IMG/VR virus record: IMGVR_UViG_3300007344_003299
Span: 1-26,529 of that record
DNA from: a virus
Length of the DNA stretch: 26,529 nucleotides
Reading direction: 5' to 3' (one strand)
Of the stretch, positions 8,620-26,452 are shown piece after piece (position 1 is the first letter of the stretch; each line of letters opens with the position of its first letter). A program made the translations under genes and the position numbers. The notes under the pieces were generated by a model, which saw only the letters and a program-made list of their open reading frames with translations, was not told where the DNA came from and did no database searches.

Positions 8620-9000
8620 CTACTTCTTGGTTAATCCCTCATGCCGCAAGTATGCCAAATAAAAGCGGAGGAAGTCGTCCAGTCTGAGTAAGACGAGACT
8701 GTCCCCAGTTTTCATTCTTGATTTGCGATTGATGACGACAGGACAGCTTTCTGATTTGGTCTTGTCGATATTAGTTTCTGCTTGTCGCAGTGCCTCGTGG
8801 AAGTTCAGACGCTCCACTCTCTTGGCTTCGATGAATAGTTCGGGAGTGCCGAGTATGTCTGCACCGCCAGCCATTCCGACTTTGCCGCCGCCAGACAGAG
8901 GTGCGCGAAACGATTGCAGACCAGTCGCTTGATTGATGTACGCCGCTAGTTCACGTTCGTACTTGTCACCCTTTTGTTTGCTTCCACGCCCACCACTCAA
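8620..9000 (-). CDS. PD-(D/E)XK nuclease, Holliday-junction-resolvase-like
   Basis: A 126-residue nuclease of the Hjc/phage resolvase type. The usual motif order is visible: KGDKYERELAAYIN with E15/E17, then GGADILG (D48), then FIEAKR (E58-x-K60). Such enzymes cut branched DNA during recombination or before packaging. The start is probably the TTG at 8998-9000, overlapping the stop of the HTH/zinc-ribbon gene (ATTGA); no ATG or GTG fits upstream of motif 1. Context with primase, SSB and Sak4-like genes fits a replication/recombination role. Confidence 0.78.
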   Translation of the reverse strand: MSGGRGSKQKGDKYERELAAYINQATGLQSFRAPLSGGGKVGMAGGADILGTPELFIEAKRVERLNFHEALRQAETNIDKTKSESCPVVINRKSRMKTGDSLVLLRLDDFLRFYLAYLRHEGLTKK

Positions 9001-9290
9001 TCTTCATATCCCATATCTTTGCGACATGGTTTGCAGAAGAACCAATTCTTGGGCCGCTTGTGTGTGTCCCCGCATGACATGCACGGACGTGTCCATTGTT
9101 TTTCCTCAAAGTCACGTCGGACTTGATACTTCGCTCCATCAAATTCTTGAAGACCTTCTCGGACGAGAATACGCTTCAGTGTGTCGACGCAACATCCTAT
9201 ACGACGTGCCATCTCTGAGTATGGTTCTGTGTTGTGGTTCTCTCGGAGCCAAGTCAAGTCCGCGTCTGACACGCGAACATTTCTCGGCAT
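8997..9290 (-). CDS. HTH / zinc-ribbon DNA-binding protein
   Basis: A 97-residue protein. An N-terminal helix-turn-helix (about 9-45; DADLTWLRENHNTEPYSEMA then RRIGCCVDTLKRILVREGL) is followed by a zinc-ribbon-like part with C70xxC73 and C86xxC89 (CMSC...CKPC). This suits a sequence-specific regulator or a nuclease accessory protein. It is the first gene of the minus-strand block downstream of the promoter at 9325-9353, with a 34-base leader, and is coupled to the resolvase-like gene. Which site it binds is unknown; the ACACCT motifs in its own upstream region are candidates. Confidence 0.75.
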   Translation of the reverse strand: MPRNVRVSDADLTWLRENHNTEPYSEMARRIGCCVDTLKRILVREGLQEFDGAKYQVRRDFEEKQWTRPCMSCGDTHKRPKNWFFCKPCRKDMGYED

Positions 9291-9324
9291 TTGAAATCTC
9301 CAAATATATTTTACCTGCGTCTAA

Positions 9325-9353
9325 AATGTAATACGCGTCAAGAAATTATGCAA
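9325..9353 (-). promoter_or_regulatory. Promoter for the minus-strand block 9290-4333
   Basis: Read on the minus strand, TTGCAT (9353-9348) and TACATT (9330-9325) are spaced by 17 bases, a good sigma70-like pair. Transcription would start near 9318, about 28 bases before the ATG at 9290, which is preceded by GAG. An ACACCT element overlaps the upstream edge. A second TTGACG nearby lacks a well-placed -10. Confidence 0.5.
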
Positions 9354-9369
9354 CACCTTTAATAACTTT

Positions 9370-9516
9370 AGGTGTCTGTGTGACACCTGTTGACTTATGC
9401 AGTCAAGATTGATAAAACTCTAGGCGTTGAGTTTGCGACGCCCCCGGTTTCCGGGGTCGTCGGGAATAAAACGAAACGACTGGAAACGCCAACGGCGTTG
9501 GGTGGAGAGTTTTATC
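9370..9516. other. Non-coding chain of stem-loops (candidate structured RNA or replication origin)
   Basis: Five helices follow one another in a gene-free stretch. AGGTGTC/GACACCT lies at 9370-9376/9382-9388 (7 bp, 5-base loop). TTGACT/AGTCAA lies at 9390-9395/9401-9406. An outer 11-bp pair GATAAAACTCT (9411-9421) / AGAGTTTTATC (9506-9516) encloses the last two: CGACGCCCCCGG/CCGGGGTCGTCG (9436-9447/9451-9462, one mismatch, TTT loop) and AACGCC/GGCGTT (9485-9490/9494-9499). There is no T-run, so it is not a simple terminator. The stem sits upstream of the small gene at 9556 and next to the primase-helicase gene. A three-way-junction RNA, a lagging-strand or phage origin, or an attenuator would all fit. 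Confidence 0.6.
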
Positions 9517-9555
9517 ACTTTCCGACAATCAGTAAACAAATCAATGAATTAGACT

Positions 9556-9768
9556 ATGACAGACGACAAGGATCGTGAAGAAAAAATACGCCGCAACCGT
9601 GAGAAATACCCAGAGATTGCGGCGTTAGTAGATGAAGTCAGGAAATATTTTCCCGAAGCGAAGGTAACTTCTATTCGGAAGTTGACACCTCAAGAACAGG
9701 AGCAGAGGCGTCAAGTTCTAACCAGTCGCGAACAAGGCGTAAGGGTCTGGCCAACTTCTGAGCGATGA
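9556..9768 (+). CDS. Small hypothetical protein opposite the primase 3' end
   Basis: A 70-residue charged, helical protein (REKYPEIAALVDEVRKYFPEA, then KVTSIRKLTPQEQEQRR) with natural-looking composition. The ATG at 9556 has only a weak ribosome site. The final 98 bases overlap the convergent 3' end of the primase-helicase gene, and the C-terminal end (after about residue 55) may simply be read-through of that overlap. It is the only plus-strand frame downstream of the stem-loop chain, so it might be expressed from a promoter near TTGACT (9390). No family recognised. Confidence 0.5.
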   Translation: MTDDKDREEKIRRNREKYPEIAALVDEVRKYFPEAKVTSIRKLTPQEQEQRRQVLTSREQGVRVWPTSER

Positions 9769-11611
9769 CGTCTGGGTCGTGACCATCTAATGCCATGTCT
9801 TTCGCACGTTGCTTGGTTGATCTGCTCGACACAACAATCTTCTCGTCTGTGATGTTGTGCGCCGCGTATCCAACCCACTGCACACGATCATGTAGGTCAG
9901 TCCATTCTCGGACTTTGCCATACCGTATCTCCATCACCATGTATAAGCGATAGTCAGACGGTAGCTTTGCTTGTAGCTGTGGCCAGATTGGGTGGTCATA
10001 GTTGCCATCGTACAGACCTGCGTTCTGTTTGGCTGTGTCCTCGTCATCAAAGACCTGCGCCACTCTGATCTGTGTCTCCAGCACAGTAAGCTGGTTTGTT
10101 GAACCCGCCTCTCGGCCAATGCCACTTTCAGATGGCTTGTTGCTGTGGTGGATCATGATCACAGACAGGCCAGAGTTGCGAAGTTTGACTGCCAGCTTGT
10201 TGATTTTTGCCCACTCGTCTGCGGAGTTTTCAGCCAGACCGGGATACGCAGACCGAATGGTGTCGATCACAACCACGTCTGGCTCTGCAAACTCAATCCA
10301 ACCTTGCAGTTCCATCAGCCCTTCACGTTGGTGGAGGTCGATTTCTTTCTTGTCTACGAAGGGTGTCCAGATGTTGAGGCGGTCTTGTGTGTCGCCATGT
10401 ATCTGCCGCATTTCGATTAGGCGTCTGGCGATTGTCGACATGCCCATCTCGAAGTCGAGATACAAAACTCGTGCAGGTCTGCCGATTTCAAATGGCCCGA
10501 AATACTTTCGCCCTGCACATAGTGCGGACATCGCATGCTGAACAAAAAGTGATTTGCCATGGCCAGAGTAACCGAAGACCTGCACGATTGTATTAGCAGG
10601 TAGCCAAGGCTCAATCAAATAAGATTTGGCGTCACTCTCAGATAATAATTGCTCGGCATCAGCCATTTGGATGAGGCGTCTATCCCTCTTTTCCTCTTGC
10701 TGTTTCTCATGCACATAAGGCTTGTAAATATAGTCGCCATTATCATTGAAACGATCAGGATGGTTGCGTCGTTCGGACTGCTCCATTGACTGAACCGTCG
10801 CCTCGAACTCGCGCTCGTCCAGTTGATCTGCGAAGAACTCATTCATGAAGGCGTGTCCGCGCAGACGCAGGTCTGGGCCAAAGTAACCTTCCAATATGCT
10901 CTCGCTGATGTGCCGCATCACTCGTTCGTTGCGGCCATTGCTCATGCCAGACGGTATCTTCAGAGTGTTGGGGAAGTTGTCACGCACATACTTTGCTGTG
11001 CGATCCCACTCACTAACAAACTCATCAGGCTGTAAAGGCTCAACAGACGACAGGTCAAGCTCATCAAAATGAAAGTCCCCGTCTGGTCTTCTCTCTTGCA
11101 GACAAGGCTTCCAGTCTTCCCACATTGGGAACTCATCCCAGTCTATGTACTGAGGGTAATCCCAAATGTAGTTGTTTGATGGGGGAAGTAGCGCATAGCT
11201 ACCGTCCCCACGGAAGTCGAGGCCGTTGATCTTTGGCCAATCTGCTCCCCGACTATTTATCCCTGCTCTCGGCCCACGCCGCACGCCATCACGCGGATGT
11301 TCAAAGTATAAGTGAACACCGCGCTTTGTTTTTACGCGGATGGGTGAACGCATACCCGCATCGAATGCGGCATGCAGTGCATCTTCGTTGTCACAATCGA
11401 CAACCACCACGCCACTGATTGCACCAGTGACGATTGCTATGTCGTGGTCTGGCCACTTCGTCCACCATTCTTCCACCTCTTCCTCGGTGGGGTGTCTGTC
11501 TTGGTAATCACGCCATTTAATAGCGGGTCTCTTCCCTTCTGGCTTGATTGGAATGATGCTCCAACCACGATCCAGATATTCAAGAGCCGCATCCAATTTG
11601 GTCTTGGACAT
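9671..11611 (-). CDS. Bifunctional primase-polymerase / RepA-like helicase
   Basis: A 646-residue replication protein. The N-terminal AEP-type prim-pol domain (about 5-165) has DRGWSIIPIKPEGKRPAIKW, the metal motif VVVVDCD (D72, D74), KRGVHLYF (H100) and GLDFRGDGSYALLPPS (D132). The C-terminal RecA/RepA-like ATPase (about 330-560) has Walker A GYSGHGKS (347-354), VLYLDFEM and Walker B VVVIDT (D450), with the MIHHSNKP motif after it. It would prime DNA and unwind it at the fork. I chose the ATG at 11611, with AGAGG six bases upstream, rather than the ATG at 11617 or the TTG at 11626. It overlaps the Cro-like gene by 32 bases and is in its operon. Confidence 0.93.
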   Translation of the reverse strand: MSKTKLDAALEYLDRGWSIIPIKPEGKRPAIKWRDYQDRHPTEEEVEEWWTKWPDHDIAIVTGAISGVVVVDCDNEDALHAAFDAGMRSPIRVKTKRGVHLYFEHPRDGVRRGPRAGINSRGADWPKINGLDFRGDGSYALLPPSNNYIWDYPQYIDWDEFPMWEDWKPCLQERRPDGDFHFDELDLSSVEPLQPDEFVSEWDRTAKYVRDNFPNTLKIPSGMSNGRNERVMRHISESILEGYFGPDLRLRGHAFMNEFFADQLDEREFEATVQSMEQSERRNHPDRFNDNGDYIYKPYVHEKQQEEKRDRRLIQMADAEQLLSESDAKSYLIEPWLPANTIVQVFGYSGHGKSLFVQHAMSALCAGRKYFGPFEIGRPARVLYLDFEMGMSTIARRLIEMRQIHGDTQDRLNIWTPFVDKKEIDLHQREGLMELQGWIEFAEPDVVVIDTIRSAYPGLAENSADEWAKINKLAVKLRNSGLSVIMIHHSNKPSESGIGREAGSTNQLTVLETQIRVAQVFDDEDTAKQNAGLYDGNYDHPIWPQLQAKLPSDYRLYMVMEIRYGKVREWTDLHDRVQWVGYAAHNITDEKIVVSSRSTKQRAKDMALDGHDPDVIAQKLARPLRLVRDWLELDASAPVLEVSTSE

Positions 11612-11807
11612 CTTCATCCTCTTCAAAGTATAGGTCTAAGTCTAGTTCTGGGTTCTCGGACTTGATTTTCTCCAAGACGACGCTCGACACATACTGTCTT
11701 GTAACCCACCCATAAGGCGCAGTGCGAACCACGCCCACGAGTTTAGCCACAGAAGATGCGCCGCCCAAATCATCTATAAGACGTTGGATGTTGAGCTTCG
11801 CTTGCAT
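11580..11807 (-). CDS. Cro-like HTH repressor
   Basis: A 75-residue small DNA-binding protein starting at the ATG at 11805-11807 behind AAGGAAAG; an ATG seven codons upstream is less well placed. The helix-turn-helix (about 8-50: RLIDDLGGASSVAKLVGV then RTAPYGWVTRQYVSSVVLEKI) has the Cro/YdaS pattern in which the missing DNA-contact helix is RTAPYGW. The end is acidic (DLDLYFEEDEDV). It is the first gene after the divergent promoters, in the place of a lambda-like cro, and probably represses one or both (inference). No CI-like partner gene with a protease domain is visible here. Confidence 0.82.
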   Translation of the reverse strand: MQAKLNIQRLIDDLGGASSVAKLVGVVRTAPYGWVTRQYVSSVVLEKIKSENPELDLDLYFEEDEDVQDQIGCGS

Positions 11808-11828
11808 TCGATCTTTCCTTTTTTTCAT

Positions 11829-13634: not shown

Positions 13635-14450
13635 ATGAGCATAAAAGCTACCGAAGTTGTCTTCAAGATTGACGAAGGATATGACAGAAAAACCGAAGAG
13701 AGAGCGCGAGACTATATTGGGGCTTCGGGCATCGGACATCCCTGCGACGCCTACCAAGCCTACAGCCTACGCGGATTTCCCAACACTGAGCCAGACGCTC
13801 GCCTCAAGCGAATATTCCGCTTGGGCCACATCCTCGAAGACGAAGTCGTCAAAGACTTAAAGGAGAAGGCAGACGTTCGGGTCTGGGAAGTCGATGGTCT
13901 GACTGGTCGTCAGCACACATACGAAGAATGGAACGGTCATGTGGTCTGCCACATGGACGGACACATAGAACTAGATGATGGCGAACTGCGCGTCTTGGAG
14001 ATCAAGTCCATGAACGACGCATCGTTTAAGAAATTTCAGAAGGACGGAGTGAAATACTCGCATCCACGTTACTTTGCACAGGTGCAAATGATGATGGGGA
14101 TGTCTCAGATACATGAGACCTTCTTTATCGCTGTGAATAAAAACAACAGCGAATACCATGCGGAGATTGTAAAATATGATGAGTTTGAATTTGGACACAT
14201 CAAGGATCGGATACAGACAGTGTTCGATGGAAACGCAAAAAAGATCAGCGTCGACAACTCAGACTGGCGTTGCCGAGGGTGTTTCAAATCAGACGTATGT
14301 TGGGGCGACCGTAGTGTTCCCAAGTTATGTCAGACCTGTAGCTTTTCCCGTCCAAAGCCAGACGGTGGATGGCATTGTAGCAAGCATGACAAGGACACCC
14401 TTAACCCTTGCGAAGATTACAAATTGTTTGAGCCATTACCGAAGGAGTAA
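13635..14450 (+). CDS. RecB/Cas4-like PD-(D/E)XK exonuclease
   Basis: A 271-residue nuclease. The core has E68 (GHILED), D108 (HMDGHIE), E122-x-K124 (LEIKS) and a YFAQVQMMMG motif (about 146-155), the PD-(D/E)XK order of RecB and Cas4 nucleases. C37 in GHPCDAY together with a cluster of C-terminal cysteines (C213, C216, C222, C232, C235, C248, C259) may bind a 4Fe-4S cluster or zinc. I chose the ATG at 13635 with GAGGGA upstream; the open frame extends earlier but only as a shadow of the SSB-like gene. It probably resects DNA ends for Sak4/SSB-type annealing (inference). Confidence 0.85.
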   Translation: MSIKATEVVFKIDEGYDRKTEERARDYIGASGIGHPCDAYQAYSLRGFPNTEPDARLKRIFRLGHILEDEVVKDLKEKADVRVWEVDGLTGRQHTYEEWNGHVVCHMDGHIELDDGELRVLEIKSMNDASFKKFQKDGVKYSHPRYFAQVQMMMGMSQIHETFFIAVNKNNSEYHAEIVKYDEFEFGHIKDRIQTVFDGNAKKISVDNSDWRCRGCFKSDVCWGDRSVPKLCQTCSFSRPKPDGGWHCSKHDKDTLNPCEDYKLFEPLPKE

Positions 14451-14454
14451 CTGG

Positions 14455-14742
14455 ATGAAGCTAGAGGAGTTAAAGGAAAAACACGAGGCGATTGCAGAAA
14501 AGACCTCCACTCTTCTTGCCGAAATCGAAGCCAAGCAGAATGAAATCTTGTCGATTACTGAACGTCTGGATGAGATCAACATTCTGAAAGGTGAGGACAT
14601 CAAAGCGCAGAAGGCACGAGCGAAAGAGAAACGTGCGCGTCTGCGTGATGAGATCACAGACCTGCGACATAATGTACGTCTGTTGGATGGGCAGAAAGAA
14701 TGGCTAATGATCAAGGCGAAAGCTCTGGCAGGTGAACTATGA
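14455..14742 (+). CDS. Small coiled-coil protein
   Basis: A 95-residue protein from the ATG at 14455 with GAAGGAG upstream. It is almost entirely helical and highly charged (KLEELKEKHEAIAEKTSTLL ... EIEAKQNEILSITERLDEIN), with heptad-like leucines and isoleucines, so it is expected to be a coiled-coil dimer. No enzymatic motif. It is coupled to the following gene (ATGA at 14739). In this operon it may bridge recombination or replication proteins, but that is inference. Confidence 0.7.
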   Translation: MKLEELKEKHEAIAEKTSTLLAEIEAKQNEILSITERLDEINILKGEDIKAQKARAKEKRARLRDEITDLRHNVRLLDGQKEWLMIKAKALAGEL

Positions 14743-15101
14743 AGCGCGGCGAAATATTAGGCAAGGCTTCAGAATATGTTGATGGCCCAAGGGCAGACGA
14801 CTACGGCGACGCGTTCGAGAACTTTGAGCGGATTGCTGAAGGATGGAATATTATTCTCAAGAACGCCTTGAATACGCACGGATATTTCACAGCATCACAC
14901 GTCGCATTGATGATGGATTGGGTAAAGACAGCACGTCTATTGCACAACCTAGAAAGCGCAGACGGATGGATTGATAAGTGTGGATATAGCGCACTCGGTG
15001 GCGAGTGCGCTATGAAGAGCAGAGAGCGGAGTGATTACGCTAAGTCTCTAATTGAAAATGCGGCCCGTCCAAGAAAGGCCGACGACCCTGAGAGCGTCTG
15101 A
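14739..15101 (+). CDS. DUF6378-like phage protein
   Basis: A 120-residue, mostly helical protein. DDYGDAFENFERIAEGWNII, then MMDWVKTARLLHN, SADGWIDKCGYSALGGEC, matches the DUF6378 pattern (YGD...N..RIA..W, ALMM...K.AR, D.w.D..GY.AL..E) as I recall it. The family looks like a compact all-alpha, possibly nucleotide-binding fold, but its activity is not established to my knowledge. It overlaps the stop/start of the preceding gene. Its 3' end runs 62 bases into the convergent endolysin gene. Confidence 0.8.
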   Translation: MKRGEILGKASEYVDGPRADDYGDAFENFERIAEGWNIILKNALNTHGYFTASHVALMMDWVKTARLLHNLESADGWIDKCGYSALGGECAMKSRERSDYAKSLIENAARPRKADDPESV

Positions 15102-16618: not shown

Positions 16619-19600
16619 TCAGTAGGACTTGTTCCAACTGCCCTGCCAGCCGCCTGAATTGCCGCTGTTAGGCTCGCCTGCGGCGGCATCCACTAAGCCC
16701 TCACGGAAGCGTCTGTTGCCTCCAAGGACTGGGATACGCGTCGCAACTTCGCGCATTGCAGACCGCTCTTTTGCGTTGCTGTTGTCGCCCTCATCGAAGA
16801 TGCCTGCGGCTACCTGCATTGTTGCGTTGCCAAGACCGAAGGATGGGCCAAGAACTGTCGACCACATACGCTGTTGTCCGTATGCGCCGTTATCGACTTG
16901 GCTGACTGCTGAGTGAATGACGTCACCGAGTAGACCAAGGCCACCCATCACCATCATACTTTCAACATACCAACCCATGAAGTCGTTCTCGCCGCCATGA
17001 ACTTTCTCGTCATAGCCAAGTGCTTTGAGCAGGTTACGTTTACGCAATTCAGAACTACGCTCGTCTTCACCGCCGCGTTGTTGAATGATGTCTTTCGCTG
17101 TCAGTGTTGCCGCACCAAAGAGTGGGCCAACAGACGCCAGATAAGCCAGTGGTTTGAGGTTGCCTTTGTTGGCTTCGCTCAAGACGTGACCAGTCAGACG
17201 TGACATCATCAACGGGAACGACTTCAACTGGAAGACCAGTGCGCCGATTGGCGTCTGCGCCCACAGTGGGATGTCGTTCGGGTTTGGCTGGAAGATTGCG
17301 TCGTCTGCAAACTTAATGATCGCCATGCGCAGGCCGTCTTCTTCCATGATAGACGGATCAATCATCTCTCCTGCTCGTTTTGCACCGGGCAAGAACTCAG
17401 ACAGACCGTAGTTTTTCAGGAAGCGGTGTGCAGTTTTGTACTGCGCAGACTGCTGTGCGTATGGGACACCTTCCTTGAACGTATCACGCGCCTTCATCTG
17501 CATGGTGCGGAAGGCTTCGTAGCCAGTCGCGCCTGCAATCATGCGGTTCATGTCTGTCCAAGGTGTCAGCAATGTAGCGTTGAAGAAGGCATGCGATGCC
17601 TTATTGTCTGGCGCACCGTACATGTGAACCATGCGCTCGTGAACAATGTTCTCCATCGCAACACCCACGTTGCGGATCATCTCTCTATAGTGCGGGTCTC
17701 TCAAGTTCTTGACGCCAGTTGCCCAAGATTTGAAAGAGCCAGAGCGGATAATTGGAAGCCCCAAGTCACCGATAGATGTCAGCGTCGTAAAGCCAAGAAG
17801 CGATACGTTGTTGAACATCCGAACCCCACGAGAGACACGCATTGCCGTCTTGTTGGTTCCGCGCATCGGCTTCTTCAGCAAGACTGACATCGCATCTTCG
17901 ACGTAACGCAAGCCTTCGTCTGTATCTACAGAGCCGGGTTTACCTTTGAAGTCTGCAAGTGCGCCAACGATTGCGTCTACACGCTTCTCGTATACTGGGT
18001 TCACACGGCCAGACGTGTCGAGTGGCGCAATGTCCATCAGCATCTGACGCGCACCAGACGGGCCAGATGTTTGCGCAACTTCAATCAGCGTATCAGCAAA
18101 TGCTGATGCTTCTTGCGCCGCGCCTTGGAATGGCATGCGGATTGTGTCGACCAGCGTCGCCACCTCGCGTCTGCCTTGCGGGTTCATTGCGGTGATGTCG
18201 TACTCGAACTGCTTATTCTTGGTAAGTAGATCGACGATGCCCTGCTTACCTTCGTTTGCGACCATCAGGTAATCAGACACAGCGTGGCTGTTTACACCGA
18301 AGCGTTTCGCAGACGTTAGGCGGCGTGAGCTACCCTCAAAATACTTGACCAAGAGACCTTCGAGGTTGCTTTCCAAGAATGGCTCAAGTTCTTTGAGCAT
18401 ATCTGGATACTTTTCGAGTTCGATAATCCGTGAGTAGTCGACGTTCTCGAAGGTTGAGTTCTTTGTAGTTCCCTTAACTGGGATGAAGATGCCATCATCT
18501 GCCTCATCCAACAGCTTGAGCATGACGCCTTCCGCAAATGCGGTTGCCTGCTCGTCTGTGAAGTCTTGGCCAAACTCTAGCTTCTCGCGCATATAGTAGC
18601 GACGCATCTTCTCGACAAACTCGTCGCGGTTTTTGGCAATCTTCTTCTGATCCCAGACCTGCGGCAAGTAGTTCGGGCCACGGTCGCCGACATGGTAGCC
18701 CTCTTTGATCAGTTCCATGCGCTCGTTTGCGAGGTTCGCGCGGATTTGCTTGTAGATCACGCGCTCGTCTGCACTCAGTGCTTTCTCTTGACGTGACCCA
18801 TCACCGTAGCGCAGTGCCTTAACAATACGGCTGTGCGACTTCGGCTGATCCTGACCAATGCTTGATGTCGAGCGACGGAAGTGTCCGCGCAAGATGCCGT
18901 CACTATCTGGCAGTCTGGATAGACGGTCAAATACAGGCATAATCTTCTTGGCGAAGCGTTGGTTCAGATCAGGGAAGTGTTCCTTGTACCTGTCACCAAG
19001 CCAGTTCATGCCCATATTCTTCATGCGTTGCGATGAACGCTCGAAGTATTTGAATGGGCCAGACTTACGGACTGCCGCTTCTTCTTGCACAGACATGTCA
19101 CGCTTGCGAAGCATTGACATGATCGCACCTGTCATAGTGCTGTTTGTACCTTCTTGCTCTAGCAGTTCGCCGAATTGTCCAACTGGGATGTCGTTGATGC
19201 TCTCAATGCTTTCATCCATCAGAGCCATTGTGACGTCGCCGTTCACTCCGCGAGGAATGATGCGCTCTTTCTCAACGATGTTGTTGTAGACCATCTCGTC
19301 GTTGATGTCGAAGTAGTCTGCGTCAACATGCTTGGCCTGCTCCGGGTTGAACAAGATAACGCTGGTGTGCGTTACAGACGATGCCCGGTAGGTGTCTGCA
19401 TTCTGCATCAGGTCTTCGCCAGACGACAGAGTATTGCGGTGTGTTGTGATCATTCCGTCATGACCAAGATCGTCGAGGAACCCAGTCAGTTCTTCCTGCG
19501 CCGCAACTCGGTTGCGGCCAGACTTCATGATTGAGTTCACCAGTTCGCGATACGCGACTGTCCCTTCAACATCCTTATCTAGCAGTGCGTCTGATAGGTG

Positions 19601-22600
19601 CTTGAATGTGCGCTCGTTGTAGTTACCGACTTCGTTCATCCGACCCATGATCGCTTTAATCGTTGGGTGGTTCAGGTTGTAGACGGTGGTTGAGCGGAAA
19701 TCGACAGGGCGACGCAGTTGGATCAACATCGGCATGACATATGGATCAATGTTTAAGCCACGAGCGGCAAGGCTTTCTGCCAGTGCCTGCTCATTCGCAA
19801 CCATCTCATCGAGAGTGTTGCGGAATGCGTCCAGCGTGCTGGTTGTCACGTCTGGGTCGACGCCAATGTTCTCCTCGATGACCGTGTATTCACGGCGCAG
19901 ACGAGAAATTTCACGGCGTGTTTCCACCATATCCCAGATGTCCCAATCGAGGTCTTCTTTCTCAGCCGCTGGAAGGTTTAGTTCTTCAGCCTGCTGGAAC
20001 ATAGCCTCCATAGTTGGGCGTCGTGAGTAGACTTGGGTCGCTACATGTGGATTTGCTGTTAGGTAGTAACCGGGGCCATAGTTTCCGCCCTGAGAACGTC
20101 TGAAGATTGCGTTCGGATTGTCGTCTGTGCGACGGAACACATACCCTTTTGGCGTTCCATGGTAGAAGACCACAGGAACCTCGGCCTCTGCGTTGTAACC
20201 AAAGCCACCTTTAGTGAAGTTCACCATGTTGACGGCGCGAGGCTTCGATGCTGAGTTGATTGCGTCTGCCGCGTAGTCTGCCGCGTATGATGGATGCGTA
20301 AGTGCGCCATCTACGGAAGCTGACATTGGGCGGCTCTCGCCATTAACGAACATATCTCCGTAGAATGTCAGACGACGGTAGCGTCCCTTAACATCTGCGC
20401 GTCCAATCTGTCCGTTTGTGACGTAAGCAGTGTACTCAATGGTACGATCAATAGCACGATCAAGAGTATTTCTCATGCGGATGTTATTGGCATCCCCAGT
20501 GATCACGCCCTCAAGGATTTGTCTGCGCGGTATATCCTCTCGTGTATACCGATTGACTGCATCAGCGAACCACTCGTTGGCGATTGCTTGCTCACGGATA
20601 TACTCAGGACGATCTGCGTATTTCGCGCCAATCAATCCTTCGATACGTTTGCGCATGCCGCTATCGAGAGAACGGTATGCTTCAATGATTGCTTCGCTTT
20701 CATCTGGTTTCAGTGCGCCAGAACGAACGACCATGTGCATTAGATCACCGACCGCTTCTTCTGGAGACGCATTACCTTTGTTCAAAGTTGATGCAATTCT
20801 GCGAGTTGCCTTGCGAAACTCGTTAAACTCAGGCGATCTGTAATCTCCGAATACTCCGTCACCTGCGAATGTCTCGTCACGGCCAGCCAGACGCGCAACG
20901 TCACCTGCCATCAAAGCATTCGTCTGTTCGTTTGTGCCACGGGCTGTTTTGCCCATGATGTTGTACAGACGATAAGCCATGGTGCGCAGTGTGGTTTGCA
21001 CATCGGCGTCACGGTGTGTGAGGAAAGATAGGTTCTCGCGAAGTGACGCGCGAGCGGAGGGAGGAATGCCGTCGCTTGTCATTACACCGACATTATCGTT
21101 CACTTCACGAGATATGATTAGGTTACTGTCACGGAATACTGGAGAGATAACTTTACCGCCATTCTTCATAGCTAGTTTCTTGTTAGCTCGACGCCCCAAC
21201 TCGTACAGTGCCATATTGAGAACGTCTTTGTTCCCTTCATATGCCGCTTCGAGTAGCGTCTGCTCCAGTTCCTGACCACCCATCGCGAAGATTTCGCGAG
21301 TGACAGGCACCTGTTTCGCAGGCAATGGACGCGCTTTTACTTTAGACGCGATCTCTATTGCCAGTTGATCCCCGTAGTCTGTGCCACGATGCTTGCGGTA
21401 AGCAGTGAACAGCTTGCGAAGTGATAAGTCTTTCGGGCTACCTGCCACAGACACATCAACTGCGGGAGTATTCTTGCCAGACGCACGTGCGCGTTTAGGT
21501 TTTGGAGTATTTGCATCTGCAACAGCTTGCGCTTCTGCACGTGCCGCTTGTGTTGCACGGTTTGCTTTTGCTTTTGCTTTGGTTGCTGATGGCTTTGCCA
21601 CTCCGTCTGCGTTACGAGGTGGGTCATTCTGCACTCGTGGCTTGGAACCAGCAGGCAAAGTTCCCTTGCCTTCAGCACGCTGATAGCCAGACGACAATGC
21701 GTCGTCGATGCTCTCGATCATGTGCTTAACGCTTGAATAACCCTTGTCGATAGCACGTTTGCTGATCTGACCCGGAATGCCGTTGGCAGGTTGCCACTTG
21801 CCAGCATAACCGTTGAAGTAGAAGTCTCGTAGGTTGTCTGCGATTTCTTGTGGGTTTCCGATAGACTGCAAACCTGCAAGATCGCCACCTTCTAGGAAGC
21901 GACGGGCAGATGCGGTGTCGTCAATGCTTGTAAGCTCAGACGTTTTGCCACCAAGGATTTCATCAATCGCCTTGAACTTCTCATTCAGAATTCTCAGCAG
22001 TGTATTCGGCTTGCCTTTCGGTGAACGCAAAGCCAGAAGTGGGCCAGAGCCACCCATACCTGCGACAGGCACACCTTCTTTATTGTTTACAGCGACACTC
22101 AGCAAGAACCGCTTCAGTTCTTGGAATGACGTTATGATGCCCTCTGCGCTATCAGACGCGAAGGCTTCGTTGATGTCTCTTTCCAATGCTTGAAGTTGTG
22201 CGTGTCGGCTTTGCAGTATCTTGCCTTCAGGGGTAACAGGCTTGCTGTCCACGCCCATTGCGAACTTCTTCTCCTGTACGCGGTCAGGTAGGATTTTTGC
22301 AAACAGCGGCTCAAGGCTTGGGTCGATTGTTTCTTTTGCAAAGAAGCGGTCAAAGACTGCCTGAACATAGTCAGTCATACGCTTCCAGAAACCAAGGTCA
22401 CGTACCTCTACGTCTGCATGTTTTTGCATTGCCCAGACTGAGAACTGATTTGCGAAGAACTCTTGTGGGCTGTCACCCGCATTTGTGCTGAGTGTGTAAC
22501 CACCACCGACATCCATACCTGTGTAGGTAGGAAGTCTGTCGTTGATCTTGCCTCCGTCTTTCTTCAGCTTCTGGCCTTTTGACCCAGTCACATAATACTC

Positions 22601-25600
22601 GGTCATATGATCCCAGAACTCGACGCGGTCTTCTGGTGTCAAGATATTGCGATACGCCCAGTGCGCGACCTCGTGATAAAGAGTAGCAATTCTTGGGTGC
22701 GTCTTCTTGGCTTGCAAGTTGATGTTGATGTATGCGCGGCCTTCAGACGTCATGTTGTGGTTATCACCACCACCATTTCTGCCACGGATTTCAGGCGCGA
22801 CGTTAGGGTCGCCACCAAGGTCACGGATCAAACGGTGCGCAGTGCTAAGTTCTTCAGCCGAGTAGCCTGAAAGAATGCCGTCAAGATTTTCGATCAGGTC
22901 TTTTCTTTCGACGTTAGTCAGCGTGAAACCCTGCGGATTTACACGGCGTTGTGCGGCGTAAAGAGTGCGCAGTGCCTGCGTGACCTCCATACGTTGCTTG
23001 TCGATCAAGGGCCAGCGTGTCTGTGTGTCGAGTGTAGACGTCAGCAAGCGGAGTGTCTGGAAGCTCATAGGCTTGCCTGATGACAGCATGCCCTCAACCT
23101 GACCTGTGTAACCTACCTTGCCAGCCGCGAGACGTAGTGCGGCCTGCTCTTCTGCTGTTGGCTCAAAGTTAAGTTTGTCTGCGTCTTTGACATCGAGTGG
23201 ATCGCCCATGCCTGTTGCGTCGCCTGCATTAAAGCGTGCGCCACGACCAGTTGCCGCTTCTTCAACGGGCAGACTGTCGAACAGGGCTTTCTTTGCCATA
23301 AGCGTCTTTGGATTTGCGTCCATTGGCGCATAACGGATTTCCCAGTTGTCTGGGTCAGATGCCTTACCACCCTTCTGGCCAATGATTGCGTAGATGTCTT
23401 TGCCATCTTCAACTTGTTGGCGTGAGATGAGACGAATGTCATCTGGGTTATCTTTGGAGCGAGCAATAAGTTTCTTATCGCCACGAGATGGAGGTGGTGA
23501 CGGCTTGACGTCTGCCGCCGGGACAACTTCCGGGGCGGCTGTTTTGTCTTTTGCCGCACGGCGCGTGCGAAGCTCGCGCAATAGCGCGTCTACGTCTGTC
23601 TCGTCTGCGTACTGATCAAGAAGAGCGGCGAGCGTCTGGTCTACAGACTTCTCAGCTTTTGGTGCCGCAGTCGGCTGTGCAGTGGATGGAGCATCGCCAC
23701 GTGCTTTCAGTGCGAAATCACGGCTAACATAGGCGCGGCCAGTTACACCGTCAGCCCATGCTGTGCCGCCCTTCTTGACTTCAACCAATCCAGTTGGGCC
23801 AAAGACTTGCTCAGTACCAGTTGTTTCGTATGGTACAAGGTCTTGTCCCTTACCTGACTTTGCTTGGATCATAGCCGCTTCACGACCAAACTCGTTCGGG
23901 CGAACCTGATAACCACCGCTTACAGTGTAATCAGAGCCTTTTGAGATGCGTGTGCCACGGCGTAGGAACGATTGGATGCGGCCAGTTTTTGCACGGCCTG
24001 CTGTCGTGTAGATTGATTTGTCGTCGATGGCCTTTTGAGTGCCGCGTTCGAGCGTTTTAGATGCGTTGCCACGCATTTCCATGACACGCGCTTCGGCCAT
24101 GGTGCGAGCGGCGTCATCGCTAATCCCTTCGATCTCGCCTTTGTACTTCTTAGATAGACGGTCGATTTGTTTTAGTTCTGTCTTAGTGTATTTACTGACG
24201 TTGCTCGCGTTGCTTTCTGTAGCATCGCGCATTCTGATCTCGTGATCGAGTAATGCCAGAAGGTCGTCTGCACTAGACTTAAACTCATCGGATGATCCGA
24301 GCTTGGCAACCCAAGTACGGATTTGATCGTCAGTTAATTCTTCGCCAAAACTGTCGAGAAGGTCGCCGATCTCGTCTAGTTCACGCTGTACAGTTAGTGC
24401 GTAGTCACTAGGTTTGGCATCGCCGCGTGTGCGAAGTGCCTTGCTTATAACGCCTTTTGTGATGCGGCCATCTTTTGAGTTCGCTGATGGCTGTAGGCTA
24501 CGCCAATCAAGACCTTCAGCAATAGCACGGCCACGCTGTTCAATAGAAATATCTGGGATGTTCGCTGTAGGAACGTCTGCATCCAAACCATTCTCACGGG
24601 CAAAGATTGCAACCAGTTCGTCTGGGTCTGCTTTTGCACCCACCTCGTTTGCGCGACGACGGATTGCGTCGAACGCTTCGAGAGGATTGTCCTTGTACAT
24701 GGGATCGCCCATGTCGATGGTCTGCAATATGCCTTCGAGTTCTTCACGAGGGGTTGGCGTTGCAGGAGTTTCTGCGTCACCGCCCAGCGCACGGGTAAGA
24801 TCGCGACCACCTTGGTCAATACCTTTCTTGGTACGGATGTCGCTGATGCTTTGCTTAACAAGCTGACCACGCTTGCCTGTTGTGATTAGGCCGCTTGCAA
24901 TGTCGCGAGCAAGGTCTGCTTCTGAGTATGTGTCGTCAAGCAATGCACGTGCTTGTGCCTCGACACGGCCAAATGCGATTGGCTGTGCAGGAGTTTCTGG
25001 TTCAGGAGCCGCTTCAGGTTCTGCTTCAGGCGTTTCAGCGCGAGCCGCAGGAGTTTCTGGAGCGTCAGTCATCGCGCCATCAGTTGATGGCGCGTCTGTC
25101 ATTACCTGTTCAGGCGGAGCTTCAGGTGCTGGTGCCAGTTCTTGTTCTGGTGCAGGAGCTTCGTCTGCCTGCTGACGCAGGCCAAAACCGTCTGCATCCA
25201 TACGGGCAAGCAACTCATCAGGCTCAAGTCCGTCTGCGGCGGCAAGTACCTGACGCACGTCTGCCATGTATGTTTCATAGCGACGACGAAGCTGTGCCGC
25301 TTTCTCGATGTCTCCAACAGCGTTCGATCCTTCGAGTTCGATAATCTGCTTTGCTTCACGTTCTGCACGCTTTTGTGCTGAACGAAGTGCCGCAATAGTC
25401 GCCGCCTCTTCTTCTGCACGCGCGATAGTATCTGCGTCTGCACCAGACGTGCGAAGGTCGTCGATAAGTTGGCGAGCGGCACGTGTCGCACCGTCGAGCG
25501 TTGCGTTTACTTTGGCTAGGTCTTCAGCGAAATCACCAAACTCGCCCGTATTAAATTGAGCGGTAGGTGTTTCTGCCTGTGCAGTTGGTGCCGCTTCTTC

Positions 25601-26452
25601 TACTGGAGCGGGTTGCATAAATTGGTCTACATCACGAGAACCAGTGACTAGATCGTTCAAGCCACGTGCGCCACCTGTGGCAAGCGTCTCGCGGATTTGC
25701 GCGTCTGTCATGCCACGAGCGCGTAAGCTCGCAACGTCGTCGATACCCTGACGTGCGCCAGCGATGCCTGATGGAATACCGATTGCACCACCAACGCCTG
25801 CGCCAAGCACACCGCCTGCCAATGCAGACACGCCAAGTTCTGCGCCACTAAAGCTGTCGCGTGCGCCAGTCTGGATGTCGCGAATTTGTTCGGCAGTGTT
25901 GACGATTGCTTCTTGGCCAGCAGAGATCGCGCCTTCTGATGCGGCGGCTCGGCCGACACCAGATACTGTGCATGGTGCGACTGGAGCGGATTTACCGGCG
26001 ACGTAGGCCGCACGGCCTGCGGTCGCGGCACCTTTGTAAGCCGCAACACCGGGAATAAGATTGAGAGGATCAGCAATGATTGCGCCAGCAATGTCACCAA
26101 GTGCGATTGCGCCACGGCCACCGTCTTGCCAGAAGTTTGGAAGTTGACGCCAGACGCTGTCGATGCGGCGCATACGTGCGCGTTGTTCTGCGGATGCAGA
26201 CGATGCTTCCATCGCGTCGCCGATTGCCCCAACTGTATTGAGGTCGCCCCACGTCTGATCGCTGTAGAACATGTCGATCAGGTGTTGGTCGTCTGCGAAG
26301 TATTGACCCTTCTCCCTGTAGTACGAACGAAGGTCGTTCAGGAAGCGTGGGTCTCGCATGATTTGGCGAGGATTTACAGTACCAGAATAGTCTTCAGTCG
26401 GCTGATTGCCGAAGTTTTGGATGTCAACTTGACCCTTAGTATAAAAGCTCAT
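16619..26452 (-). CDS. Giant 3277-residue polyvalent virion protein (zincin + ADP-ribosyltransferase-like)
   Basis: One unbroken frame from the ATG at 26450-26452 (GGAG upstream) to TGA at 16619, about 37% of the window. In order: N-terminal virion-type region (about 1-125), Gly-rich hydrophobic stretch (about 200-237), Pro/Ala/Glu-rich linker (about 430-488), long helical region, zinc-peptidase motif H1260EVAH1264 with a candidate third ligand E1331 (SPQEFFANQF), basic Ala/Lys linker (about 1618-1661), ADP-ribosyltransferase-like domain with FYH2098GT, GPGYYLT (2127-2132), GHDG (2330-2333) and FNPEQ (2368-2372), then a C-terminal region with hydrophobic segments (about 2867-2915, 3059-3120, 3158-3185) like internal virion and LPD-type domains. 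Polyvalent proteins of this kind are thought to be injected with the DNA and to disarm host functions. It precedes the lysis genes by 9 bases. Confidence 0.9.
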   Translation of the reverse strand: MSFYTKGQVDIQNFGNQPTEDYSGTVNPRQIMRDPRFLNDLRSYYREKGQYFADDQHLIDMFYSDQTWGDLNTVGAIGDAMEASSASAEQRARMRRIDSVWRQLPNFWQDGGRGAIALGDIAGAIIADPLNLIPGVAAYKGAATAGRAAYVAGKSAPVAPCTVSGVGRAAASEGAISAGQEAIVNTAEQIRDIQTGARDSFSGAELGVSALAGGVLGAGVGGAIGIPSGIAGARQGIDDVASLRARGMTDAQIRETLATGGARGLNDLVTGSRDVDQFMQPAPVEEAAPTAQAETPTAQFNTGEFGDFAEDLAKVNATLDGATRAARQLIDDLRTSGADADTIARAEEEAATIAALRSAQKRAEREAKQIIELEGSNAVGDIEKAAQLRRRYETYMADVRQVLAAADGLEPDELLARMDADGFGLRQQADEAPAPEQELAPAPEAPPEQVMTDAPSTDGAMTDAPETPAARAETPEAEPEAAPEPETPAQPIAFGRVEAQARALLDDTYSEADLARDIASGLITTGKRGQLVKQSISDIRTKKGIDQGGRDLTRALGGDAETPATPTPREELEGILQTIDMGDPMYKDNPLEAFDAIRRRANEVGAKADPDELVAIFARENGLDADVPTANIPDISIEQRGRAIAEGLDWRSLQPSANSKDGRITKGVISKALRTRGDAKPSDYALTVQRELDEIGDLLDSFGEELTDDQIRTWVAKLGSSDEFKSSADDLLALLDHEIRMRDATESNASNVSKYTKTELKQIDRLSKKYKGEIEGISDDAARTMAEARVMEMRGNASKTLERGTQKAIDDKSIYTTAGRAKTGRIQSFLRRGTRISKGSDYTVSGGYQVRPNEFGREAAMIQAKSGKGQDLVPYETTGTEQVFGPTGLVEVKKGGTAWADGVTGRAYVSRDFALKARGDAPSTAQPTAAPKAEKSVDQTLAALLDQYADETDVDALLRELRTRRAAKDKTAAPEVVPAADVKPSPPPSRGDKKLIARSKDNPDDIRLISRQQVEDGKDIYAIIGQKGGKASDPDNWEIRYAPMDANPKTLMAKKALFDSLPVEEAATGRGARFNAGDATGMGDPLDVKDADKLNFEPTAEEQAALRLAAGKVGYTGQVEGMLSSGKPMSFQTLRLLTSTLDTQTRWPLIDKQRMEVTQALRTLYAAQRRVNPQGFTLTNVERKDLIENLDGILSGYSAEELSTAHRLIRDLGGDPNVAPEIRGRNGGGDNHNMTSEGRAYININLQAKKTHPRIATLYHEVAHWAYRNILTPEDRVEFWDHMTEYYVTGSKGQKLKKDGGKINDRLPTYTGMDVGGGYTLSTNAGDSPQEFFANQFSVWAMQKHADVEVRDLGFWKRMTDYVQAVFDRFFAKETIDPSLEPLFAKILPDRVQEKKFAMGVDSKPVTPEGKILQSRHAQLQALERDINEAFASDSAEGIITSFQELKRFLLSVAVNNKEGVPVAGMGGSGPLLALRSPKGKPNTLLRILNEKFKAIDEILGGKTSELTSIDDTASARRFLEGGDLAGLQSIGNPQEIADNLRDFYFNGYAGKWQPANGIPGQISKRAIDKGYSSVKHMIESIDDALSSGYQRAEGKGTLPAGSKPRVQNDPPRNADGVAKPSATKAKAKANRATQAARAEAQAVADANTPKPKRARASGKNTPAVDVSVAGSPKDLSLRKLFTAYRKHRGTDYGDQLAIEIASKVKARPLPAKQVPVTREIFAMGGQELEQTLLEAAYEGNKDVLNMALYELGRRANKKLAMKNGGKVISPVFRDSNLIISREVNDNVGVMTSDGIPPSARASLRENLSFLTHRDADVQTTLRTMAYRLYNIMGKTARGTNEQTNALMAGDVARLAGRDETFAGDGVFGDYRSPEFNEFRKATRRIASTLNKGNASPEEAVGDLMHMVVRSGALKPDESEAIIEAYRSLDSGMRKRIEGLIGAKYADRPEYIREQAIANEWFADAVNRYTREDIPRRQILEGVITGDANNIRMRNTLDRAIDRTIEYTAYVTNGQIGRADVKGRYRRLTFYGDMFVNGESRPMSASVDGALTHPSYAADYAADAINSASKPRAVNMVNFTKGGFGYNAEAEVPVVFYHGTPKGYVFRRTDDNPNAIFRRSQGGNYGPGYYLTANPHVATQVYSRRPTMEAMFQQAEELNLPAAEKEDLDWDIWDMVETRREISRLRREYTVIEENIGVDPDVTTSTLDAFRNTLDEMVANEQALAESLAARGLNIDPYVMPMLIQLRRPVDFRSTTVYNLNHPTIKAIMGRMNEVGNYNERTFKHLSDALLDKDVEGTVAYRELVNSIMKSGRNRVAAQEELTGFLDDLGHDGMITTHRNTLSSGEDLMQNADTYRASSVTHTSVILFNPEQAKHVDADYFDINDEMVYNNIVEKERIIPRGVNGDVTMALMDESIESINDIPVGQFGELLEQEGTNSTMTGAIMSMLRKRDMSVQEEAAVRKSGPFKYFERSSQRMKNMGMNWLGDRYKEHFPDLNQRFAKKIMPVFDRLSRLPDSDGILRGHFRRSTSSIGQDQPKSHSRIVKALRYGDGSRQEKALSADERVIYKQIRANLANERMELIKEGYHVGDRGPNYLPQVWDQKKIAKNRDEFVEKMRRYYMREKLEFGQDFTDEQATAFAEGVMLKLLDEADDGIFIPVKGTTKNSTFENVDYSRIIELEKYPDMLKELEPFLESNLEGLLVKYFEGSSRRLTSAKRFGVNSHAVSDYLMVANEGKQGIVDLLTKNKQFEYDITAMNPQGRREVATLVDTIRMPFQGAAQEASAFADTLIEVAQTSGPSGARQMLMDIAPLDTSGRVNPVYEKRVDAIVGALADFKGKPGSVDTDEGLRYVEDAMSVLLKKPMRGTNKTAMRVSRGVRMFNNVSLLGFTTLTSIGDLGLPIIRSGSFKSWATGVKNLRDPHYREMIRNVGVAMENIVHERMVHMYGAPDNKASHAFFNATLLTPWTDMNRMIAGATGYEAFRTMQMKARDTFKEGVPYAQQSAQYKTAHRFLKNYGLSEFLPGAKRAGEMIDPSIMEEDGLRMAIIKFADDAIFQPNPNDIPLWAQTPIGALVFQLKSFPLMMSRLTGHVLSEANKGNLKPLAYLASVGPLFGAATLTAKDIIQQRGGEDERSSELRKRNLLKALGYDEKVHGGENDFMGWYVESMMVMGGLGLLGDVIHSAVSQVDNGAYGQQRMWSTVLGPSFGLGNATMQVAAGIFDEGDNSNAKERSAMREVATRIPVLGGNRRFREGLVDAAAGEPNSGNSGGWQGSWNKSY

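Follow-up and report, generated by a model that had tools for sequence, protein, structure and literature searches.

A promoter-bearing three-way junction beside the primase-polymerase gene of Roseobacter phages and their relatives: a candidate replication origin

Hairpin elements near primases

To our knowledge, the replication origins of phages that encode a primase-polymerase (PrimPol) are largely unknown. The closest documented system is that of the Sulfolobus plasmid pRN1, which cannot replicate without a 100-nt stem-loop located 3′ of its PrimPol-helicase gene (PMC4234260). The fold of this stem-loop is conserved and changes in its sequence are tolerated, while the symmetry of the stem is needed; a similar stem-loop was noted in Bordetella phage BIP-1, where an origin was proposed too, and no specific binding of the pRN1 protein to its own stem-loop was seen (PMC4234260). 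In RSF1010, the RepB′ primase binds a single-stranded DNA hairpin, and the sites involved, ssiA and ssiB, one on each strand, are 40 nt long and combine a GTG start with a 21-nt hairpin (PMC4434180). Finally, in phage N4, hairpins whose loop contains a sheared G:A pair are extruded in living cells and silence a promoter of the host (PMC4496689).

The element described here lies in a 26.5-kb virus record (IMG/VR IMGVR_UViG_3300007344_003299; all 26,529 nucleotides, hereafter the window). Like the pRN1 stem-loop, it is about 100 nt long, lies within a few hundred nucleotides 3′ of a Prim-Pol gene, combines a long stem with additional inner pairing, and keeps its fold while its sequence has diverged. 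In both cases, the replication protein has an N-terminal Prim-Pol domain. By contrast, this domain is accompanied here by AAA_25 (PF13481) instead of an SF3 helicase and a winged-helix domain, the element is a three-way junction that encloses two defined hairpins, its stem incorporates a promoter, and it belongs to bacterial phages, those of Roseobacter and relatives, with a putative, rather than documented, origin. Since the SF3 helicase is missing, the element is classed as one that would work like a pRN1-type origin and not as a member of that group.

Comparisons with the other two systems are also partial. As in RSF1010, an AEP-type primase adjoins a hairpin that would form in single-stranded DNA; in contrast to the ssi sites, there is one multi-hairpin unit of 86–224 nt (108 nt and three stems in the window), and no conserved GTG was noted. 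The promoter hairpins of the N4 virion RNA polymerase, which extrude under supercoiling, have a trinucleotide loop closed by a sheared G:A pair, a geometry that the GNA loops in 13 of 29 relatives would share, the loop of the window itself being TTT; unlike the N4 hairpins, the element is a larger three-way structure and has a sigma-70-like promoter. An N4-type virion RNA polymerase promoter was rejected, because Pfam finds no RNA polymerase domain in the 3277-aa virion-like protein of the window. This giant protein (16619–26452, minus strand) shows a weak Pfam match to ART-PolyVal (ADP-ribosyltransferase), below the cut-off.

The conserved unit and its gene neighbourhood

All five inverted repeats that had been reported at 9370–9516 are present. 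The outermost has arms at 9410–9421 (TGATAAAACTCT) and 9506–9517 (AGAGTTTTATCA), both given on the plus strand; they are separated by 84 bases, as originally stated, and match over 12 exact bp rather than 11. This stem, P1, closes two hairpins to form a three-way junction of 108 nt. P3, at 9437–9461, is the GC-rich stem with one mismatch of the original prediction, GACG-C-CCCCGG(TTT)CCGGGG-T-CGTC, the mismatch being C9441/T9457, and P2, at 9485–9499, is an exact stem, AACGCC(AAC)GGCGTT. P1, P2 and P3 form one conserved unit, and the two left-hand repeats lie outside the fold. One of these is the palindrome AGGTGTCTGTGTGACACCT (AGGTGTC...GACACCT) at 9370–9388, which looks like an operator. The other, at 9390–9406, comprises the −35 box and part of the spacer of a promoter (see below), and as a hairpin it is not kept in relatives.

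The predicted RNA folding energy of the element is far below that of shuffled sequences on either strand (z −5.6 and −5.3), folding with DNA parameters yields z −6.0 on each strand, and the minimum among sliding 120-nt windows falls exactly at the element (z −3.4). No tRNA was found at the element. Rfam gave no match anywhere in the window at the gathering threshold, and none at the element in six relatives at E ≤ 1. The earlier remark that there is no terminator T-run was borne out, and an intrinsic terminator was rejected since the GC stem lacks such a run; an AT-rich run follows P1 on the minus strand in some relatives only.

The element lies 153 nt past the stop codon of the primase-polymerase/helicase gene (9671–11626, minus strand), on its 3′ side; the product carries Prim-Pol (PF09250, E 5.5e-29) and the AAA_25 domain. 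Upstream of this gene, a small protein (11580–11828, minus strand) has a weak match to Cro/YdaS-like DNA-binding proteins. Across the element from the primase gene, the first gene encodes a 97-aa cysteine-rich protein (8997–9290, minus strand), a neighbour that is kept in distant relatives, and is followed in the same conserved order by a PDDEXK/RusA-like Holliday junction resolvase (8620–9000, minus strand). Finally, a plus-strand ORF of 70 aa at 9556–9768 is convergent with the primase gene and overlaps its 3′ end. That it is a real gene, as had been assumed, is supported by homologues in many relatives; many share an N-terminal YxxWKRK motif, and the C-terminal motif of the family is NRxKYPEIAxxVDxVRxxFPxAKV. 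It had no match in Pfam or PHROG.

Relatives were retrieved by means of the primase gene (Prim-Pol plus AAA_25), which yielded 80 viral loci. Of these, 73 include 560 nt or more of sequence beyond the 3′ end of the primase gene, and 71 of the 73 have a P1-type inverted repeat there, with 10–14 exact bp and a span of 86–135 nt; two of these repeats sit 736 nt out. The number of such repeats expected by chance in a 700-nt flank would be well below one. The two inner hairpins likewise recur at the same place, and the signature was found in 113 of 126 loci, compared with 13 matches in the same sequences reversed. The element is absent within the available flank of L061 and L062. A blastn search of the element against phage records gave no match, because its sequence is not conserved. 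All relatives examined have the element in one orientation, so an invertible segment was rejected.

The closest cultured relative, and the only close one, is Roseobacter phage CRP-810 (OR671924), whose PrimPol is 81% identical. Its element, at 14439–14552, is unannotated, and the passages retrieved from the CRP-810 paper (PMC11288001) make no mention of it. An attP site was rejected, as CRP-810 integrates at tRNA-Thr and its tRNA-Thr lies beside the integrase gene, 5 kb from the element. Farther away, the fold is kept at PrimPol identities of 67% (L125), 65% (L136), 57% (L139) and 33% (L141); the repeat has 15 bp in L125 and 16 bp in L141, and the arm in the Poseidonocella prophage L139 reaches 20 exact bp. 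In the distant relatives L126, L127 and L140, the fold is unclear or nothing comparable was found. The order PrimPol, 97-aa protein, PDDEXK resolvase is conserved in L125, L126, L127, L139, L140 and L141, down to PrimPol identities of 31–39%. Three of these are bacterial contigs, namely Poseidonocella sp. HB161398 (L139) and two gammaproteobacterial bins (L140 and L141), and their gene order suggests related prophages beyond the marine Roseobacter CHUG phages.

In line with the original prediction, there is strong support from covariation and synteny for a three-way junction that is tied to the primase-polymerase gene. Over 29 distinct P1 arm pairs, 95.4% of cells are paired. Covariation reaches a score of 0.797, whereas shuffled arms give 0.179 (sd 0.024) and slid arms 0.05–0.16; 106 double-changed cells stand against 29.6 in shuffles, with changes on both sides in 11 of the 12 pairs. 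None of these numbers is to be read as a probability, since the rows come from related loci and the search for the arms required exact repeats. P3 aligned poorly in a MAFFT alignment of the whole element. Consequently, pairing was counted on the arms only and P3 was compared by hand, a set in which the register is wrong for L023, L028 and L030. In most relatives, P3 has a single mismatch or bulge at 5–9 bp from its loop.

A promoter within the closing stem

When 22 non-redundant loci are aligned on the left arm, a conserved promoter, TTGAC-17-TGATAnAAC, appears on the plus strand of the window. Its −35 box is TTGACT (9390–9395; TTGAC-like across the 22 loci), separated by a 17-nt spacer from the −10 box TAAAAC (9413–9418), which lies within the P1 left arm with TGA directly before it; thus, the arm is at the same time an extended −10 box plus discriminator. 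The original prediction, right about the fold, had overlooked this promoter inside the outer stem. Both the window and CRP-810 contain a single copy of the motif in its strict form. A pattern scan with E. coli rules called no promoter here, and the case for it is comparative, as is that for the fold, its covariation, its location and its overlap with the promoter, all of which the comparison of relatives demonstrates. From the spacing, transcription is predicted to start at about 9423–9426, inside P1. A transcript from this promoter would therefore lack the left arm, and P1 could not form in that RNA.

Downstream of the right arm, a partly conserved CYTTnnnTACA follows, present in the window as CTTTCCGACA (9518–9527, plus strand). 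In most relatives, an ORF of the NRxKYPEIA family is next on the plus strand, with its start codon commonly 5–50 nt past the right arm; for instance, a member lies at 14565–14882 (plus strand) in L083 and is unannotated in CRP-810. Nevertheless, this gene is replaced by a nuclease-like gene in L075, a RuvC-like gene in L078 and another ORF in L139, while the structure and the PrimPol remain. The promoter also varies in position: L139 has TTGATT-17-TTAACA at the start of the arm, in L125 a −10-like hexamer sits at the outer edge of the repeat, and in L141 the −10 box is apparently outside it. Given the varying plus-strand gene and the shifted −10 in L125 and L141, the fold is kept even where the small ORF, or the exact overlap with the promoter, has been lost.

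A second, divergent promoter, approximately TTGCAT-17-TACATT, points on the minus strand toward the 97-aa gene. AGGTGT/ACACCT repeats, at 9303–9390 in the window and 14390–14425 in L083, adjoin the −35 boxes of the two promoters and are candidate operators of a shared repressor.

Putative origin function and its rivals

Because pRN1 is the closest documented system, we propose that the element is a PrimPol origin that incorporates a promoter. The claim that a plus-strand DNA structure 3′ of the PrimPol gene is a site of replication initiation, and is either coupled to a sigma-70-type promoter or in competition with it, seems to us evenly balanced between right and wrong. Negative supercoiling, the opening of the overlapping promoter by RNA polymerase, or both, would expose the plus strand, which would fold into the three-way junction; the PrimPol-helicase, perhaps with the 97-aa protein, might then recognise P3 with its fixed mismatch and assemble there, and primers would be made on the exposed strand. 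With the −10 box forming the P1 left arm, extrusion of the structure should preclude transcription of the small plus-strand gene, and vice versa. More tentatively, and with real doubt, this may be a new class of bacterial-phage origin, in which the closing stem of a junction holds a host-type −10 box and the exclusion between transcription and extrusion times the loading of a PrimPol replisome.

Several observations count against an origin. The helicase class differs from that of pRN1, the protein of pRN1 did not bind its own stem-loop specifically, and the P3 loop of the window is TTT. In addition, a turn of the GC skew, put forward originally as a check, is seen neither in the window nor in the complete CRP-810 genome, where GC and AT skew track gene direction. 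Even so, a replication origin or primase site is the best supported of the three options first suggested, the others being a structured phage RNA and an attenuator.

The main rival, which we consider unlikely, is an element of about 105 nt that acts as RNA, either a structured non-coding RNA or a 5′ leader (riboregulator), transcribed from the plus strand or as read-through from the primase gene. It would account for the strong, covarying fold with its low RNA folding energy, and for the fact that, in most relatives, a conserved small ORF follows directly downstream. Against it, the conserved promoter would start transcription after the left arm, the fold is kept where the small ORF is replaced, and there is neither an Rfam family nor a terminator; the predicted start and the changed downstream genes likewise weaken the attenuator proposed for the gene at 9556. 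G-U pairs are also nearly absent, with none in 232 cells of the core P1 columns 4–11 and almost no G-T in P3 helices in the correct register. This scarcity is only suggestive of DNA, as seven tRNAs from the same loci, used as a control, have 3 G-U in 147 pairs (2%) and the P1 arms were found as exact repeats.

The loops bear on the same question. C-(GNA)-G triloops are stable in DNA, and GNA loops are possible in RNA too, as are GNRA loops. On the plus strand, P3 often carries such a triloop, the loop being GNA in the 13 relatives mentioned above, and one close group has GCA, GTA or GAA with the rest of the hairpin unchanged. A UNCG loop for P3 on the minus strand was rejected, since the register in L008, L011, L049 and L080 fits the triloop only. 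Together, the promoter start, the few G-U pairs and the GNA loops favour, rather than prove, a plus-strand DNA fold.

It is improbable, in our estimate, that the P1 arms are instead two inverted protein-binding sites, a promoter plus an inverted operator with DNA looping, whose sequences evolve together with a phage regulator, P3 and P2 being secondary. In favour of this, a −10 box forms the left arm, the region holds divergent promoters as well as AGGTGT repeats, and a gene for a small putative DNA-binding protein adjoins. Nevertheless, this leaves unexplained why P3 and P2 stay perfect hairpins as their sequence changes, the discriminator part of the arm is matched too, and the repeat persists where the −10 box is at the edge of the arm (L125) or apparently outside it (L141). 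Slimmer still are the chances of a cruciform at which cleavage by the nearby Holliday junction resolvase would initiate packaging or recombination-dependent replication. The inverted repeat is perfect and the PDDEXK/RusA-like gene, two genes away, is conserved even where the PrimPol is 33% identical; however, the PrimPol is linked to the element equally, and the RuvC-like gene directly beside the element in L078 means that the type of resolvase varies. Least probable of all is that hairpin-templated mutation (quasipalindrome correction) keeps the arms of a functionless fold perfect around a selected promoter: the core P1 columns do lack intermediates with single-side changes, but the three-hairpin layout, the position of the P3 mismatch and the loop type would have to persist unselected across many divergent phages, and the inverted repeat with PrimPols down to 33–57% identity.

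The putative PrimPol origin is a precise, single-copy candidate, with predictions for compensatory mutations, that is unannotated in CRP-810, a cultured member of a marine phage family with worldwide distribution. Should the element act as RNA instead, it would still be a strongly covarying structure that Rfam lacks. If the origin reading is true, the stem-loop origin of pRN1 would extend from archaeal plasmids to bacterial phages, with the addition of an overlap between promoter and origin.
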